Source: Acetanaerobacterium elongatum
GTDB taxonomy: Bacteria > Bacillota > Clostridia > Oscillospirales > Ruminococcaceae
DNA: 64,000 bases
Direction of reading: 5' to 3'
NCBI RefSeq assembly: GCF_900103835.1
Contig: NZ_FNID01000004.1
Location: 1 to 64,000 of the forward strand
Shown here: positions 3,336 through 42,672 of the stretch, piece after piece
Numbering within the stretch: position 1 is the first letter of the stretch
How the letters are laid out: each line of letters opens with the position of its first letter
Translations under genes and position numbers: made by a program
Notes under the pieces: model-generated
The model's input: only the letters and a program-made list of their open reading frames with translations
What the model was told of the DNA's origin: nothing
Database searches by the model: none

Positions 3336-4403
3336 ATGAGTAAGACCGCAACTGCACCACGCAGACTAGACACAATAAAAAAGGTTAACCGTGTAAAAGA
3401 TATCCTATTGGGCCATAACTTCTTACTGTTTGTTACCATCGTACTTTTCGTTTTAATGTACATCGGAGGGTTAGCCGCTTACAGCGGAAAAAACTTCGGG
3501 AATCTGCAGGTACTGCTGAATCTGTTTATCAGTAATGCCGGCCTGATTATCACCTCGGTAGGTATGACAATGGTGCTGATTATCGGCGGTATCGACATCT
3601 CCGTCGGTTCGGTGGTTGCCGTTACTTGTATGATGCTTGCTGCGATGATGGAAAAGCTGCATATGGACGCATTGCCGGCAATGGGTATTGTACTGTTGTT
3701 CGGTATTGCATTCGGGGCCGTACAGGGGTGGTTTATTTCATACCTGCGCCTGCAGCCGTTTATTGTAACACTCGCAGGTATGTTTTTTGCGCGCGGCCTT
3801 ACGGCGGTTATCAGTCTTGATATGATCACCATTACCAACAAAACGTTTCTTTCTATCGCCCAACAAAAGATATACCTGCCCTTTTTCGGTGTACTCAATA
3901 AAAGAGGCGTAATGGTTTACCCTTACATATACCCTACGGTTATCATTGCGCTGGTGGTTCTTGTGATAGCATTTTTAATGCTGAGATATACCAAGTTCGG
4001 CCGCTCAATCTACGCGGTGGGTGGCAGTGAGCAGTCGGCGATGCTGATGGGGCTGAATGTAAAGCGTACAAAATTAATGGTATATATCATTAACGGCTTC
4101 CTTGCAACGCTTGGCGGTATCGCATTCTGCTTCAATACGTCAGGTGCCTTCGTAGAGCTTGCAAAGGATTTTGAGATGGATGCCATCGCGGCAACGGTAA
4201 TCGGTGGTACACCGTTAACCGGCGGCGTAGGCAATGTATTTGGCACCCTGTTCGGTGTACTGATCAAGGCGCTCATCGAAACCTTTGTATCGTTCCAGGG
4301 CAATCTTTCTTCCTGGTGGTCAAAGATTATTATTGCGTCACTGCTTGCCTTCTTTATTGTTTTGCAAAGCCTTCTGACAATGCGCAAGAGTAAAAACGAT
4401 TAA
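3336..4403 (+). CDS. yjfF: Sugar ABC transporter permease (YjfF-like)
   Basis: A second RbsC-family permease of 355 residues, clearly different in sequence from its neighbour, with the loop VLIIGGIDISVGSVVAV. Its N-terminus is a basic cytoplasmic stretch before the first membrane helix. The ATG follows the upstream stop directly and is preceded by AAGGAGG inside the end of the previous gene. Two non-identical permeases per operon is the YtfT/YjfF arrangement rather than the RbsC homodimer. The gene ends the operon, followed by a strong terminator. Confidence 0.85.
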   Translation: MSKTATAPRRLDTIKKVNRVKDILLGHNFLLFVTIVLFVLMYIGGLAAYSGKNFGNLQVLLNLFISNAGLIITSVGMTMVLIIGGIDISVGSVVAVTCMMLAAMMEKLHMDALPAMGIVLLFGIAFGAVQGWFISYLRLQPFIVTLAGMFFARGLTAVISLDMITITNKTFLSIAQQKIYLPFFGVLNKRGVMVYPYIYPTVIIALVVLVIAFLMLRYTKFGRSIYAVGGSEQSAMLMGLNVKRTKLMVYIINGFLATLGGIAFCFNTSGAFVELAKDFEMDAIAATVIGGTPLTGGVGNVFGTLFGVLIKALIETFVSFQGNLSSWWSKIIIASLLAFFIVLQSLLTMRKSKND

Positions 4404-4436
4404 AGTTTTATCTTGAGCAGTCAATTCTTTTATGTA

Positions 4437-4480
4437 CCCCAAAGAGCCTCTGCATTTGCAGAGGCTCTTTGGGGTTTATA
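4437..4480 (+). terminator. Rho-independent terminator of the sugar ABC operon
   Basis: An 18-bp perfect stem, CCCCAAAGAGCCTCTGCA (4437-4454) with its complement at 4457-4474 and only TT between, is followed by TTTATATAA. It lies between convergent genes and may also damp read-through from cotJC. Confidence 0.85.
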
Positions 4481-4564
4481 TAATGTTAAATTATCAGGTC
4501 AAGTGCACCACTTTATATAGGAAAACTTGAATAGACCTGCCCTTTCAATTTAAATCTTTGATAA

Positions 4565-37626: not shown

Positions 37627-38454
37627 TTATTCAACCTGCCTTGCGCCCGAATTCTTCACCGGCGATTTGGGGGCTTCATACGGCTTTTCACCGTCACGCA
37701 AAAGCCTTGCCATCACCACAAAGCGGCCGGTACCGTCGCTTCCGTACTTCACCGAGCAGGTTGAAAGGGTAAGAATCTTATCGCTGCCTGTTACGTCGAC
37801 ATCATAGTTATACAGCGAGCCTTCCCTGGCCTTTTGTATCATGCGTTCGAACTGGGTATCACTTGGGTTATTTTGAATATAATTAAACGTTGTTTTAGTG
37901 TAAAACGCCGCAAACACCCGCCACACAAGGTCCTGCTGCGCAGTGGAAAAATAAACGTTCGGCGTGGCTTTAGCAAACGCCTCGTCGGCAAACTTAAACA
38001 GCTGTGAAAATCGCTTTCCATCCGCGCTGTCTTTTAAATCGCTGTGCCCGTAAATGATGGTATTACGGGCAAGCTCCTGTGCGGTGCCAACCGGGCAATC
38101 GCAATCTACAAAGTAACAGCCGTACACACTGTTATTCCGCTGTTCATCCCGCCGGATATAATAGCTGTTATCAAACGACTGCAGCACACTGTTATCGATA
38201 TCGGTGGAGGGAATATACAGCCACCCCACCGTGTCATGATTTTTATCGGCTGCCTTTGAAACATTCTTTAAAAAGCTGTTCCCGGTAAAAACATTGCTGC
38301 TGGGTACACTGGAATCGGGCTTCTTATTCAGTTCTCCTTCAATACTTTGCTGAGAAATTGTTTTCACCGTGTTGGTGTAAAACATGGAGCAGGAGCATAG
38401 GTTTAGCAGCACAGCCGCCGCAAAGGTTGCAGCAATAAGCCTTTTTAGTGTCAT
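37627..38454 (-). CDS. srtB: Class B sortase, probably lipid-anchored
   Basis: 275 residues. Sortases cut a sorting motif and join the protein to peptidoglycan. The triad is visible: His137 in NTIIYGHSDL, Cys233 in LTLSTCSVKYG and Arg244 in GTGRFVVMARLL. Further matches are VGWLYIPSTDIDNSVLQ and the class B helix-rich insertion around FNYIQNNPSDTQFERM. The N-terminus LIAATFAAAVLLNLCSCSMF ends in a lipobox-like LCSC, so the enzyme may be held by lipid rather than by the usual uncleaved helix; the lipobox is not canonical. It starts 27 bases after the large surface protein gene, its likely substrate. Confidence 0.85.
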   Translation of the reverse strand: MTLKRLIAATFAAAVLLNLCSCSMFYTNTVKTISQQSIEGELNKKPDSSVPSSNVFTGNSFLKNVSKAADKNHDTVGWLYIPSTDIDNSVLQSFDNSYYIRRDEQRNNSVYGCYFVDCDCPVGTAQELARNTIIYGHSDLKDSADGKRFSQLFKFADEAFAKATPNVYFSTAQQDLVWRVFAAFYTKTTFNYIQNNPSDTQFERMIQKAREGSLYNYDVDVTGSDKILTLSTCSVKYGSDGTGRFVVMARLLRDGEKPYEAPKSPVKNSGARQVE

Positions 38455-38481
38455 AACGAATCTCCATCTTGCCCTTTACGG

Positions 38482-41400
38482 TTAGTACATAAGGCCAGTA
38501 TCCGGGTTTACCTTTTCGGCATCACTCACCGTAACGTTGACCTCTCCCGATTTATCTGCGGCGTTTTTAACCACCTTGCCAGCTAGGAAGTAGGTAGAAC
38601 AATGGTCAATCTTAAAAGCAACCGTGCCGCGTGAATTGGTTGTAACCTTGCCGTAGTAATCATTGCGTTTCATATCCAGGTTGTAGTAATGCAGGTACAG
38701 CGCCCGGCTCTTATACTTCGTGCCAAGGTCAACCATCAGGGTGGCTTTGCCGGGTAATGCCCCGTGATATTTAAAATACATCGTGATAAGAGGGGTGTTG
38801 GACTCGCTGCCCATCAGCACGCGAAGATCGGCCTCATCGGGTGAGGTAAAGCTCATTGAAAAGTTATAGCTTTCGGCAAACGGCACCACCGTGCTGAGAT
38901 CGGAACCCTTGAATGACAACGAATAGTCGTTGCCTTGGAAGATGATGGTCGTATCAGGATACTTCTTGAGCTCGACAAACACCTTGGAGGATACGGTTGC
39001 GTACTTGGTGATATCTACATAAATCACCTTTGACTTCTTAAAATCAATCTGGTCGGTGCTGATTGGCTTAAGCGTACCCTGCTGACCGTTTACACCGCGG
39101 TTAATATTCAGGCTATAAGCTTTTTTGGTTTTTCCGTCGTCTGCCGTTACCTCTATGGTAAACTTATTGGCCCCCGATTTAATGGCTTGAGAGTAGTTTC
39201 CATTGTAGTCCCCTATCTCTTTTGAGCCCTGTTTTACTACTATCTTTGCCCTTGAATCGGCCGGTACGGGGAAAATATCAATGTAATCCACATCGTTTTC
39301 AACCGGTACATTATAGGCGGTTATGGAGCTCTTGAAAACCGGCGACATATCGCCTTTGTCGACCTTCAGACTCTTCAGGTCGGCATTAGAGCTTTTTACG
39401 CGAAGGTCGTCATTGGTAACGGTTACGGTATAGGTTCGCTTTGTAACCTTATCCTCCGCAGTACAAACAACGGTAATAACGGTTTTTTCCGCAAGCTTTA
39501 TTGCTGCGCTGGCCGATCCGCTCTTAACCGGGACACCCTCCACCGTAACGGTAGCTTTCTTGTGGGTGGTTGTAGGTGTTACTGTAACCGTTGTGGTGGT
39601 ACCGGTTGCAGTGGCAGTATAAATCTGATTGGTGGGAGAGAATACCGGCGAAAGCGTAAGAGAACCTACCGTCAGATCTGAGAGCGAGGGGTCGCTGCTG
39701 GGGAGCTGGCGCTTTACCGAAAGTGAGTAGGTCATGGTATCGTGCCCGTTTTCGGCAAGCACCGTAACCATGATAGACTTAGTGACATTCACGTCAAGAT
39801 CTATGCGCAGCCCTTTTCCGTATGCAACCTCGGTTGAGTTTACCTGAACGGTTGCATATTTGCTTTCGGGCACAGGATATACCGTAATAAACCGCACATC
39901 GTTACTCAGAAGTATAGTATCGTATTCAATGGTGTATTTATCAAACGGGTAGCTGACAAGCTGGGTGGTGTAATCCTTGATGTCCAGCGAGGCCAGCAGC
40001 GCGTTTGTATCCGGCGGCTGACGGGTAATATTCAGATAGTATGTGCTCTTACTAACGCCATCCTCGGCGGTAACCGAAATAGCAACCTGCAACGTATCGG
40101 TGCTGATGGCAATATACTTGTTCGGGTCGAAGATGTTTAAATCGTCCTGCGGCTCCGGCGTAATGGCAACTGTAGCCTTTGCGTGGGTAGTTGGCGTTTC
40201 TAGCGTAATACGCTTGATGTTGTAGGGAAGGCTCATATTATAGGTTTTCACGCCTGGGTCGAAGGTTTTGTTATTGGGGTCGCTTAGCCGTGTATACGGG
40301 TGCACCGTACCGGTATCATCCTTTACCACAAGGTTTGAAAGCGTTGAATCGTCGCTGGGGGGAAGCCTTTCAATATTGATTCGGTAAACCGATACAGTAG
40401 TATCCTGTGCGGTAACCGTCAATTCAAAAGTGTATAGTTCCACGTTTGCATCGTTAATAGAAAACAAGCTGCTTTTACTTCCCGAATGAACAGAAGCGGT
40501 GGCGGCATTGTCCTTAACATTGTCTTTATACACATTGATAACAACATTAGAGGACGCTTTTACGCTGTTTTTTGTTGGTCTGAAGCTTAAAGACTGTATC
40601 CAGTGACCTACAGAAAGGTTATAATTCTTGGTATCGGGCTTAAAGGATATGGCTTGTACGGCACTGTCGCCGGTGGCATCAATACCGAATACCTCAAGAT
40701 TGCTGAGGGTAGAATCCTTATCCGGCGAGGTGTCTACTACCTGCAGGTTAAACTTCAACTCAAAGATTTTTCTGTCGCCGCTGGAGGCAGTAACGTAATA
40801 CTCAGCGGTAATGGTGGTAATGCCCACCTGCTTGGGGAGGAACTGAATTTGCACCGGATCCTCTACGAGTTCGTTTCCTCCGGGGTTTTCAAGCTTCGAC
40901 TTCCAGGTATAGACGTTTGTAACGCCGTCTCCGCTAAAGCCCTTTAAAGCATCTACAATACCGGTATTAGACGAGGTAATGGTGAAATAATCGGCACGAC
41001 CACCCTTTTTACCCAGTAAAAATAGTATGTTCAGCGGGTTATAAGAACCAGTCTGCTGAGGAAAACCCGATATGTTTCCCTTATTAATATCAAGCACATT
41101 GGTAGGCTCTATAGGAACAGAGTCTGACGGGTCTGCTGTTTTCTGGATTCGGGCTGAAGGGGAGGTACCGCTTCCCTTTATCACCAAGCGCAGCGGGCAC
41201 ACCTCATCTACCTTATCCGCTTCCGGTGCGCCGGAAGGCCAATAGATAATGGTTGCCGTTAACTTTCCTTCAACATCATCTTCCTGCCGCTTGACTCGGA
41301 CATTATCAAACAGTGAGAAAAGCGGTTCATTAATGGTTATTGCGCCTTGGTATGCCGCGTTATTGGCCTCCCATAACCATTTTAAATCTACATTAACACC

Positions 41401-42279
41401 GTAGACTTCCACACGTTTGGCAACGGTGAAGTCGCTGGTGATAAAGTCCAGATCATCATATCCAGTTAACTGGATATAGGGCTTTCTCTGGTTTGGATCC
41501 ATAATGGCCTTCTTTACATCCTCCACCAGCTGCTGTTTGGTCTTGATTACGAGAATCAAGCTGTCGGACTTTTGGGTAGCAAAGCTGATTCTAAAGCTGC
41601 TGTCCTTGGTAATCAGATGCTCAGTAATCAATTGGATGGTAAGCTTTGCGGTGGTAGCAGAATTGTAGAAGCCCACCGTATAGGTAAATTTGTCGCCTGT
41701 TGTGGCGGTAGGTTTTGAGGAGGATACTAGATTAAAATCTTTAAATACACCAACTGAGGTGCTGGTATTCATCACAAATTTAGGCGCACCGTCCGGCGCA
41801 ATGTCCGTAACATCCAGATACACATAACTATCCTGTTTAATAAGATTATTCTTATCGCTGGTTACCTTCGCAACATAGGGGAAATAAATAGGCCCGCTGG
41901 CGCCCACAGAGCAGTAGTTTTCTTGCGCGTCACCCACGGCATTCAGAGTGTAGAAATCGCCCATAACAGAATAAACGCCGTTGGCTCCTACCACCGCGTT
42001 AAGAGTATCGTTACTCTGGTTGATGGTGCAGACCGTGCCCGGTTCAACCTCTGCATTGCTGCTGTCGCGAATAATCAGGCGGCTGAGATAATAACCGGAT
42101 GGTGCGGTATTTTTAACATGTATACCACGCCCCTCGACAATAATAGCCTGAGAGGTATCACCGGTTTTGTCAAATTGAAGCCACTTGTTTCCAAGTTCTT
42201 CAGAATAAACGGGAAAGATTTCAACCAGCAGAGAAAGTACCATAATAAGCATGATGATTTTATAAGTATGCCTTTTCAT
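38482..42279 (-). CDS. Large secreted surface protein with five cadherin-like beta-sandwich repeats and terminal NPDTG
   Basis: 1265 residues. Signal peptide (IIMLIMVLSLLVEIFPVYS), an N-terminal half of beta-rich sequence I do not recognise (to about 510), then five tandem domains of the cadherin-like beta-sandwich type, each opening with a phrase such as STLSNLEVFG, STLSNLVVKD, SLSDLTVGSL or ADLKSLKVDKG and closing with TYSLNI- or YTVTVT-type strands. A C-terminal module follows (LGTKYKSRALYLHYYN, KIDHCSTYFLAGK), of the kind seen in clostridial surface proteins. The chain ends at VNPDTGLMY: an NPxTG-type sorting motif at residues 1258-1262 but with no hydrophobic helix or basic tail after it. 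SD GGAGGT is 11 bases from the ATG. The sortase follows directly. Confidence 0.8.
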   Translation of the reverse strand: MKRHTYKIIMLIMVLSLLVEIFPVYSEELGNKWLQFDKTGDTSQAIIVEGRGIHVKNTAPSGYYLSRLIIRDSSNAEVEPGTVCTINQSNDTLNAVVGANGVYSVMGDFYTLNAVGDAQENYCSVGASGPIYFPYVAKVTSDKNNLIKQDSYVYLDVTDIAPDGAPKFVMNTSTSVGVFKDFNLVSSSKPTATTGDKFTYTVGFYNSATTAKLTIQLITEHLITKDSSFRISFATQKSDSLILVIKTKQQLVEDVKKAIMDPNQRKPYIQLTGYDDLDFITSDFTVAKRVEVYGVNVDLKWLWEANNAAYQGAITINEPLFSLFDNVRVKRQEDDVEGKLTATIIYWPSGAPEADKVDEVCPLRLVIKGSGTSPSARIQKTADPSDSVPIEPTNVLDINKGNISGFPQQTGSYNPLNILFLLGKKGGRADYFTITSSNTGIVDALKGFSGDGVTNVYTWKSKLENPGGNELVEDPVQIQFLPKQVGITTITAEYYVTASSGDRKIFELKFNLQVVDTSPDKDSTLSNLEVFGIDATGDSAVQAISFKPDTKNYNLSVGHWIQSLSFRPTKNSVKASSNVVINVYKDNVKDNAATASVHSGSKSSLFSINDANVELYTFELTVTAQDTTVSVYRINIERLPPSDDSTLSNLVVKDDTGTVHPYTRLSDPNNKTFDPGVKTYNMSLPYNIKRITLETPTTHAKATVAITPEPQDDLNIFDPNKYIAISTDTLQVAISVTAEDGVSKSTYYLNITRQPPDTNALLASLDIKDYTTQLVSYPFDKYTIEYDTILLSNDVRFITVYPVPESKYATVQVNSTEVAYGKGLRIDLDVNVTKSIMVTVLAENGHDTMTYSLSVKRQLPSSDPSLSDLTVGSLTLSPVFSPTNQIYTATATGTTTTVTVTPTTTHKKATVTVEGVPVKSGSASAAIKLAEKTVITVVCTAEDKVTKRTYTVTVTNDDLRVKSSNADLKSLKVDKGDMSPVFKSSITAYNVPVENDVDYIDIFPVPADSRAKIVVKQGSKEIGDYNGNYSQAIKSGANKFTIEVTADDGKTKKAYSLNINRGVNGQQGTLKPISTDQIDFKKSKVIYVDITKYATVSSKVFVELKKYPDTTIIFQGNDYSLSFKGSDLSTVVPFAESYNFSMSFTSPDEADLRVLMGSESNTPLITMYFKYHGALPGKATLMVDLGTKYKSRALYLHYYNLDMKRNDYYGKVTTNSRGTVAFKIDHCSTYFLAGKVVKNAADKSGEVNVTVSDAEKVNPDTGLMY

Positions 42280-42672
42280 ATTCCCGTTTTACCTCCATAT
42301 GCAGAGAAAACAATAAATCTATTAATTAATTCGGAATAACTTGTTTAAACTTTATACTTAATTGTATTATAGCATAACATAGAAATAAATAGTACGGAAT
42401 TATGCAAAATAAAGGGGATTTTCTGCCTATATAGTAGAAACTAGCTTCCTTTGCATATAAAACTGCATTTATCTTATAAAAAAGCGCATCAATTTACAAC
42501 AAGGTACTATATTTTTAAAATATTGTCGGTTATAATTATTTGTAGCATTGATTGCGATGAAGCATTCCGCTACAATAGTAATTTTATATATGGCCGCAAC
42601 AATTCAGCGGCGTAAAATGAATCCGGAATGAAGAGACATTACGGATAAGGCTGAACAAAGGAGGTGCCGAAA
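42280..42672. other. Divergent intergenic region, AT-rich
   Basis: 393 bp between the surface-protein gene (minus) and the carboxypeptidase homologue (plus). No gene seen. TTGTAGC (42540-42546) and GCTACAA (42569-42575) form a spaced inverted repeat; TATAAT occurs at both sides (minus strand near 42365-42370, plus strand near 42531) but without good -35 boxes at proper distance. Confidence 0.5.

Follow-up and report, generated by a model that had tools for sequence, protein, structure and literature searches.

Gene layout of the pair

The window, i.e., the whole 64,000-nucleotide stretch of DNA analyzed here, encodes a long secreted protein and a sortase in tandem on its minus strand. The first open reading frame (ORF; 38482-42279, minus strand) encodes the presumed sortase substrate, a cadherin-like repeat protein of 1265 amino acids (aa) with a Sec-type N-terminus by inspection (MKRHTYKIIMLIMVLSLLVEIFPVYS) and five stretches that match PF12733 Cadherin-like (Pfam, E 7.1e-54). 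Its C-terminal end is SDAEKVNPDTGLMY, directly followed by the stop, so only LMY stands after KVNPDTG. The codons of KVNPDTGLMY (38485-38514, minus strand) comprise a K-x-N-P-x-T-G motif and a three-residue tail, and they make up the flexible end of a conserved 190-aa C-terminal domain (38482-39054, minus strand) recognized by alignment and AlphaFold2.

A gap of 27 bp (38455-38481, minus strand) lies between the substrate stop and the sortase start. The sortase ORF (37627-38454, minus strand) encodes 275 aa, including H137, C233, and R244, and an N-terminal helix with a possible lipobox, LCSC. On the other side of the pair, a divergent intergenic region (42280-42663) leads to a D-Ala-D-Ala carboxypeptidase gene (PF00768; 42664-44016, plus strand), which lies outside the pair and is given as context only. 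An Rfam scan of the window gave no match. The preliminary description of this DNA had recognized a 1265-residue cadherin-like-repeat protein ending in VNPDTGLMY and, 27 bp downstream, a class B sortase with a complete His/Cys/Arg triad; the ORF end and the PF12733 matches agree with the former, and the ORFs, models, and alignments agree with the latter.

Sortase class and catalytic residues

Sequence and predicted fold both identify the window enzyme as a class B sortase, and transpeptidase activity is predicted. It matches PF04203 Sortase at 44.2 bits (Pfam cut-off 26.6) and the class B sortase family TIGR03064 at 129.5 bits, which is below the NCBIfam equivalog cut-off of 153.75; all 27 pair sortases match TIGR03064 at E 1e-5 or better. 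The 15 solved sequences matched by the sortase profile are each designated class B, by name or by title. Likewise, the 19 best Foldseek matches of the AlphaFold2 model (pLDDT 81) are all class B, with 4lfd at E 3.1e-19. His137, Cys233, and Arg244 are invariant in 19 aligned orthologous sortases and, in a second alignment, in 27; L094, a split gene, is left out of these alignments. A PF04203 search of the window's own genome missed the window sortase despite its above-cut-off score, so counts by that search may be low.

The split gene belongs to the pair of genome G083 (L044/L094), where the sortase (3701-4555, plus strand, L044 coordinates) is spread over two frames, representing either an assembly error or decay.

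Conservation of the terminal motif

A family sample of 297 genomes was queried with the whole protein and, separately, with a C-terminal domain model. Strong matches were found in 20 genomes, window included (E 6.6e-67 or better; next match 7.3e-26), which represent 14 genera, the window's included. The sortase directly follows the substrate in all 20 (split over two frames in G083). A first scan of genome contigs with the single window sortase gave no match. A second scan, of named genomes, used the sortase alignment, and the best 80 of 246 loci were taken; among these, 27 have the pair, and 53 hold other class B sortases with no detectable partner. The sample and named sets overlap, and together they yield 29 distinct relatives' loci, or 30 distinct orthologous proteins with the window's. 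An opposite-strand ORF at L133 with a weak match to the substrate was set aside as spurious.

The C-terminus of 29 of the 30 distinct orthologues consists of xPxTG followed by only 3-16 residues (median 6), with no membrane helix. Two residues before the motif there is a Lys in 28 of these 29 and an Arg in one, and the first motif position is Asn in 23 of 29. In an alignment of 27 C-termini (made without L097, the motif-less protein), K, P, T, and G are invariant, and the preceding linker varies in length and sequence. By comparison, these loci contain 855 other distinct ORFs of 150 aa or more, and one of them has xPxTG within its last 25 residues. The terminal motif is beyond chance (29/30 orthologues vs 1/855 other ORFs). 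At the DNA level, the K-x-N-P-x-T-G pattern occurs once in the window's own genome, at this site; the reversed control pattern also occurs once.

Of the parts of a conventional sorting signal, the xPxTG-like motif is present, and the helix and positively charged tail are absent. In the last 45 residues at the named loci, the highest 17-residue hydropathy mean is 0.76, with no hydrophobic helix after the motif. The net charge of the tail is negative in 15 of 29 proteins, zero in six, and positive (+1 or +2) in eight, with no preceding membrane helix. None of the 30 distinct orthologues has an ordinary helix and tail after the motif, so the homologues that would have refuted the preliminary description did not turn up among them. 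By inspection, the complete N-termini appear to carry a secretion signal. Instead of the 27-bp gap in the window, 23 of 26 named loci have a 4-bp overlap between the substrate stop and the sortase start, based on start codons picked by a simple rule.

The one exception is genome G156 (Bacterium 1XD42-1, L054/L097), whose substrate has a long tail and no terminal xPxTG. After the fact, we spotted KDIPNTA in this tail, a motif-like stretch with A for G. The L054/L097 sortase has MPDFQ/MPDMQ-type repeats at its C-terminal end.

C-terminal domain and its distant relatives

For the last 190 residues of the window substrate, AlphaFold2 gave a confident model (pLDDT 85). Residues 178-190 of this model, which bear the motif, fall below 50 and have no secondary structure. 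In the model, the motif is therefore on an unstructured end past the folded domain, and hence would be accessible. A PDB fold search with the C-terminal domain gave no confident match (best E 0.017). Besides the window, searches with this domain at the order level (394 genomes) and class level (291 genomes) gave distant matches only, in one and six genomes, respectively. Thus, the flagellar form, described below, looks family-restricted within these samples.

From among the weaker matches, we fetched 22 proteins that are more distantly related but share a similar C-terminal domain. Fifteen of these end in a membrane helix. An xPxTG-like motif is present in 11 of the 22: eight also have the helix, with the motif tens of residues away from it in several cases, one (L058) is ambiguous in this respect, and two are tail-less, namely L185 (GKVNPRTGTLPA) and L186 (VTNPATGCL). 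The fetched stretches around L185 and L186 contained no sortase gene. The same-family proteins L063, L181, L183, and L184 share the homologous C-terminal domain and NPxTG with the window protein but have a membrane helix and basic residues at the C-terminus, and in L181, L183, and L184 the helix is tens of residues past the motif; no sortase gene was found in the stretches fetched around these four. Altogether, the tail was likely lost from a tailed ancestor.

Several of these distant proteins deserve a brief description. L185 (G011:C48, 2029-5001, minus strand) ends in KVNPRTG-TLPA, and L186 (G026:C137, 1873-2874, minus strand) ends in TNPATG-CL; both are outside the flagellar cluster in genomes that also have the pair and are possible extra substrates. 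L181 (G113:C4), L182, L183, and L184 are large surface proteins with NPETG or NPSTG tens of residues before the membrane helix, a layout that is possibly intermediate between tailed and tail-less. L063 (1-3048, plus strand) is an ORF ending in KVNPNTG-TGEHFFS beside a relative with an ordinary NPETG tail, and its end could be a frameshifted tail; its genome, G267, is absent from the fliF list. L058 (G000:C62, 2-1360, plus strand), a second C-terminal-domain relative in the window genome, is at a contig edge and has an odd, perhaps frameshifted, C-terminus with IPETGG.

The preliminary description had left two readings of the window's short end: either the sorting tail was lost and the motif is a non-functional relic, or the pair is a tail-less sorting arrangement. 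The motif with its short end in 29 of 30 distinct orthologues supports the latter. A relic would fit a terminal motif with only LMY after it, and the helix at the end of 15 of 22 distant relatives suggests that a tail was probably lost long ago. However, the motif is conserved while the linkers before it vary, the sortase catalytic residues are invariant (27/27), and the 4-bp stop/start overlap leaves no space for a lost tail. We consider a relic very improbable and, based on motif conservation, variable linker, and overlap, rejected both it and a frameshifted tail.

Flagellar gene context

The preliminary description suggested that the two genes look like enzyme and substrate; it missed the wider context. 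Carriers of the pair are gut bacteria allied to Anaerotruncus, and flagellar genes adjoin the pair in each of the 29 relatives, typically in the order fliD-fliS-protein-sortase-flgB-flgC. At L036, for example, Pfam identifies fliD, fliS, the pair, and then flgB, flgC, fliE, fliF, fliG, and fliH; a 155-aa gene before fliD is FliT-like, below the cut-off. The order varies, and in L098 and L108 the pair comes after flgC. Flagellar genes were matched in 27/27 named pair loci vs 0/53 other sortase loci (E 1e-5), and they are at the pair in all 19 sample pair genomes besides the window's, from 13 genera besides the window's. Genomes with fliF over the cut-off include 20/20 pair genomes vs 98/297 overall (hypergeometric 5.6e-11, a value that ignores kinship). 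In G139 and G112, which are fliF-bearing and pair-less, fliD and flgB are on separate stretches, with no pair beside either.

Named carriers include Anaerotruncus colihominis DSM 17241 (L078) and Marasmitruncus massiliensis (L076). M. massiliensis (Marseille-P3646) was reported as motile, with flagella seen by electron microscopy (PMC9584879). A. colihominis carries the flagellar cluster by gene content, though a table in the same paper lists it as non-motile. Thus, the flagellar context is genomic, and a swimming carrier is documented here for one species, M. massiliensis.

The window genome is an exception to this arrangement. It has fliD-fliS (C24) and flgB-flgC-fliF (C27) on separate contigs, and its pair is on C45, beside the D-Ala-D-Ala carboxypeptidase gene and away from the flagellar genes. 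A scan of 42280-42663 (minus strand) with up to three mismatches detected no flagellar-sigma-like site, although the scan is noisy and carries little weight. Since the pair is off the flagellar genes and no flagellar-type promoter was detected, a flagellar role is unproven in this genome. A tree built from 77 sortases unites the 26 flagellar sequences with support (100/97), and the window sortase and L120, a divergent sortase with no visible partner, share a less supported fork with this group (92/93). The 27 pair sortases appear as one group at 61/31 (63% of bootstrap trees), in a bootstrap that had not settled. In this tree, the window sortase is only weakly joined to the flagellar clade.

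These observations bear on what the protein does. It may serve as a surface adhesion module whose genes accompany the flagellar ones just for the sake of co-expression, with no structural tie to the flagellum. Its length and cadherin-like repeats fit such a role, as do the location of the window genome's pair and the listing of the carrier A. colihominis as non-motile (PMC9584879, from its table). In addition, 78 of the 98 fliF-bearing sample genomes are without the pair, so flagella do not need it. On the other hand, outside the window's genus the pair sits among flagellar genes in 13 genera, and every sample pair genome has fliF. We regard this role as plausible, at a little under even odds; it is compatible with tail-less sorting and differs from the reading favored below in role only.

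The flagellar context could also mean that the sortase joins its substrate to another protein, either a flagellar component or a further copy of the substrate, as class B pilus sortases do. Such enzymes exist and are among the fold matches of the window sortase: Streptococcus pyogenes Spy0129 and the S. pneumoniae type II pilus SrtB (3psq, 4y4q). Class B pilus sortases, in contrast to the enzyme of the present pair, polymerise pilins with ordinary tails. Among candidate acceptors only FliD was examined, and its length does not separate pair genomes from others: FliD frames have 722-1050 aa in pair genomes, where complete, and up to 1065 aa in pair-less genomes (FliD was matched in 19 of 20 pair genomes, with none in G083, and that of G063 is cut by a contig end). 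FliD as an acceptor via an extra insert is therefore unsupported, and linkage to a protein overall appears unlikely. Across the family sample, whether or not the pair is present, FliD frames mostly exceed 600 aa and reach 1065 aa, which is long compared to Escherichia coli FliD.

Tethering of the sortase

The preliminary description considered the sortase to be seemingly lipid-anchored and, in its tail-less reading, to catch a freely secreted protein. The N-terminus of the window sortase (MTLKRLIAATFAAAVLLNLCSCS) does fit a lipobox (LCSC) by a simple rule, but this feature is not general: among 26 named sister sortases, the rule is positive in three (L075, L093, and L099) and negative in 23, with the rule covering residues before the helix in L108. 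By inspection, the remaining named sisters have an N-terminal hydrophobic stretch. L093 and L099 are sisters in the tree; the L075 and window sortases are placed elsewhere. Because few sortases have a lipobox-like N-terminus, the tethering mode seems exchangeable across relatives, and thus tail-less sorting would not hinge on a lipid anchor.

Proposed processing of the tail-less substrate

In our preferred explanation, with a probability of roughly 0.67, the class B sortase is dedicated to one tail-less surface protein, which is co-translated with it, made alongside flagella, and processed by this enzyme, probably through attachment to peptidoglycan. From sequence, conservation, gene context, and fold class, we infer cleavage, an acceptor, a mode of capture, and a role in motility or surface contact. 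An N-terminal signal peptide would direct export of the cadherin-like protein and is probably cut off (inspection shows AxA-like sites). The C-terminal domain of the exported protein would then offer the flexible K-x-N-P-x-T-G and a few further residues to the sortase, which is encoded by the following gene, overlapping in most loci. A helix, or probably a lipid in a few lineages, would keep this enzyme at the membrane. After cutting the T/G bond, the sortase would join the protein to an amine, which is most likely part of peptidoglycan. In place of the membrane tail, capture may rely on coupled translation and on export at a shared site, with a contribution from residues outside the pentapeptide, namely the conserved Lys and perhaps the C-terminal domain. 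This would yield a wall-linked protein whose production goes along with that of flagella. Peptidoglycan is the default candidate acceptor, with another protein possible, and candidate roles are a wall collar, a surface adhesin made with flagella, or other functions.

A tail-less substrate with nothing holding it would also suit an enzyme that acts mainly as a protease or in a chaperone-like way, trimming the C-terminus and releasing the protein; sortases can hydrolyse their own substrates in vitro. The conserved T-G site and the full transpeptidase fold of the model suggest transfer, and we consider mere trimming improbable. In a more far-reaching version, which strikes us as unlikely, the sortase builds part of the flagellum: tail-free KxNPxTG would link the large cadherin-repeat protein covalently to peptidoglycan round the basal body, or else to an outer part of the flagellum, as a wall collar, bushing, or flagellum-base adhesin, and native substrates would need no membrane-held tail if co-translated with the enzyme.

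Several observations go against the preferred explanation, namely the tail need of Clostridioides difficile SrtB, the missing terminal motif in G156, the split G083 sortase, the non-flagellar place of the window pair and the negative promoter scan there, the 78 fliF-bearing genomes without the pair, the non-motile listing of A. colihominis, and the weak tree placement of the window sortase. C. difficile SrtB (SPKTG/PPKTG substrates) is also a class B sortase of a clostridial gut bacterium, but it has several candidate substrates. According to PMC5569036, a sorting tail keeps a sortase substrate at the membrane so that it can be cleaved; in C. difficile, sorting depends on association with the membrane, for which a hydrophobic region and a charged tail are needed, and CD3392 and CD2537, unlike the present substrate, need these elements for cell association. 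The same paper describes two SrtB substrates with weak tails as unanchored, with the weak tails suggested as a possible cause.

The SrtB-IsdC systems of Staphylococcus aureus and Bacillus anthracis resemble the present pair in their TIGR03064 family membership, class B fold (4lfd, 1rz2, and 2oqw), invariant His/Cys/Arg, and NPxTG-type motif with one known substrate (PMC11987632). They differ in that the present substrate is without a membrane helix and basic tail, and the present pair is found with flagellar genes rather than heme-uptake genes. PMC11987632 gives the motifs as NPKTG for B. anthracis SrtB (baSrtB) and NPQTN for S. aureus SrtB (saSrtB), and reports that baSrtB needs residues outside NPKTG, i.e., P5 Asp and P2' Asp. 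Whereas baSrtB uses the P5 Asp, the motif described here is preceded by a conserved Lys. By analogy, this pair family may use extra contacts, including the conserved Lys, and coupled synthesis instead of a tail.

Among the open-access papers listed in our literature searches, some listings being the best 20 of 146, 42, or 119, none described a flagellar operon with a sortase or a native sortase substrate lacking a tail, which is not proof of absence. With a natural, conserved tail-less family, the need for a tail can be tested directly, and protein ligation would gain a tail-free pair that nature has already made. The retention of a sortase gene within flagellar clusters would also connect covalent anchoring at the surface with flagellar genes in gut commensals, among them A. 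colihominis and M. massiliensis.

The window genome also carries further sortase-like genes at L059 (G000:C58, 8537-12991, plus strand). Among the neighboring ORF ends examined at this locus, no obvious tailed substrate was seen. Here, four class B sortase-like genes are consecutive (323, 360, 307, and 305 aa), and the first has a lipobox-like LAAC.
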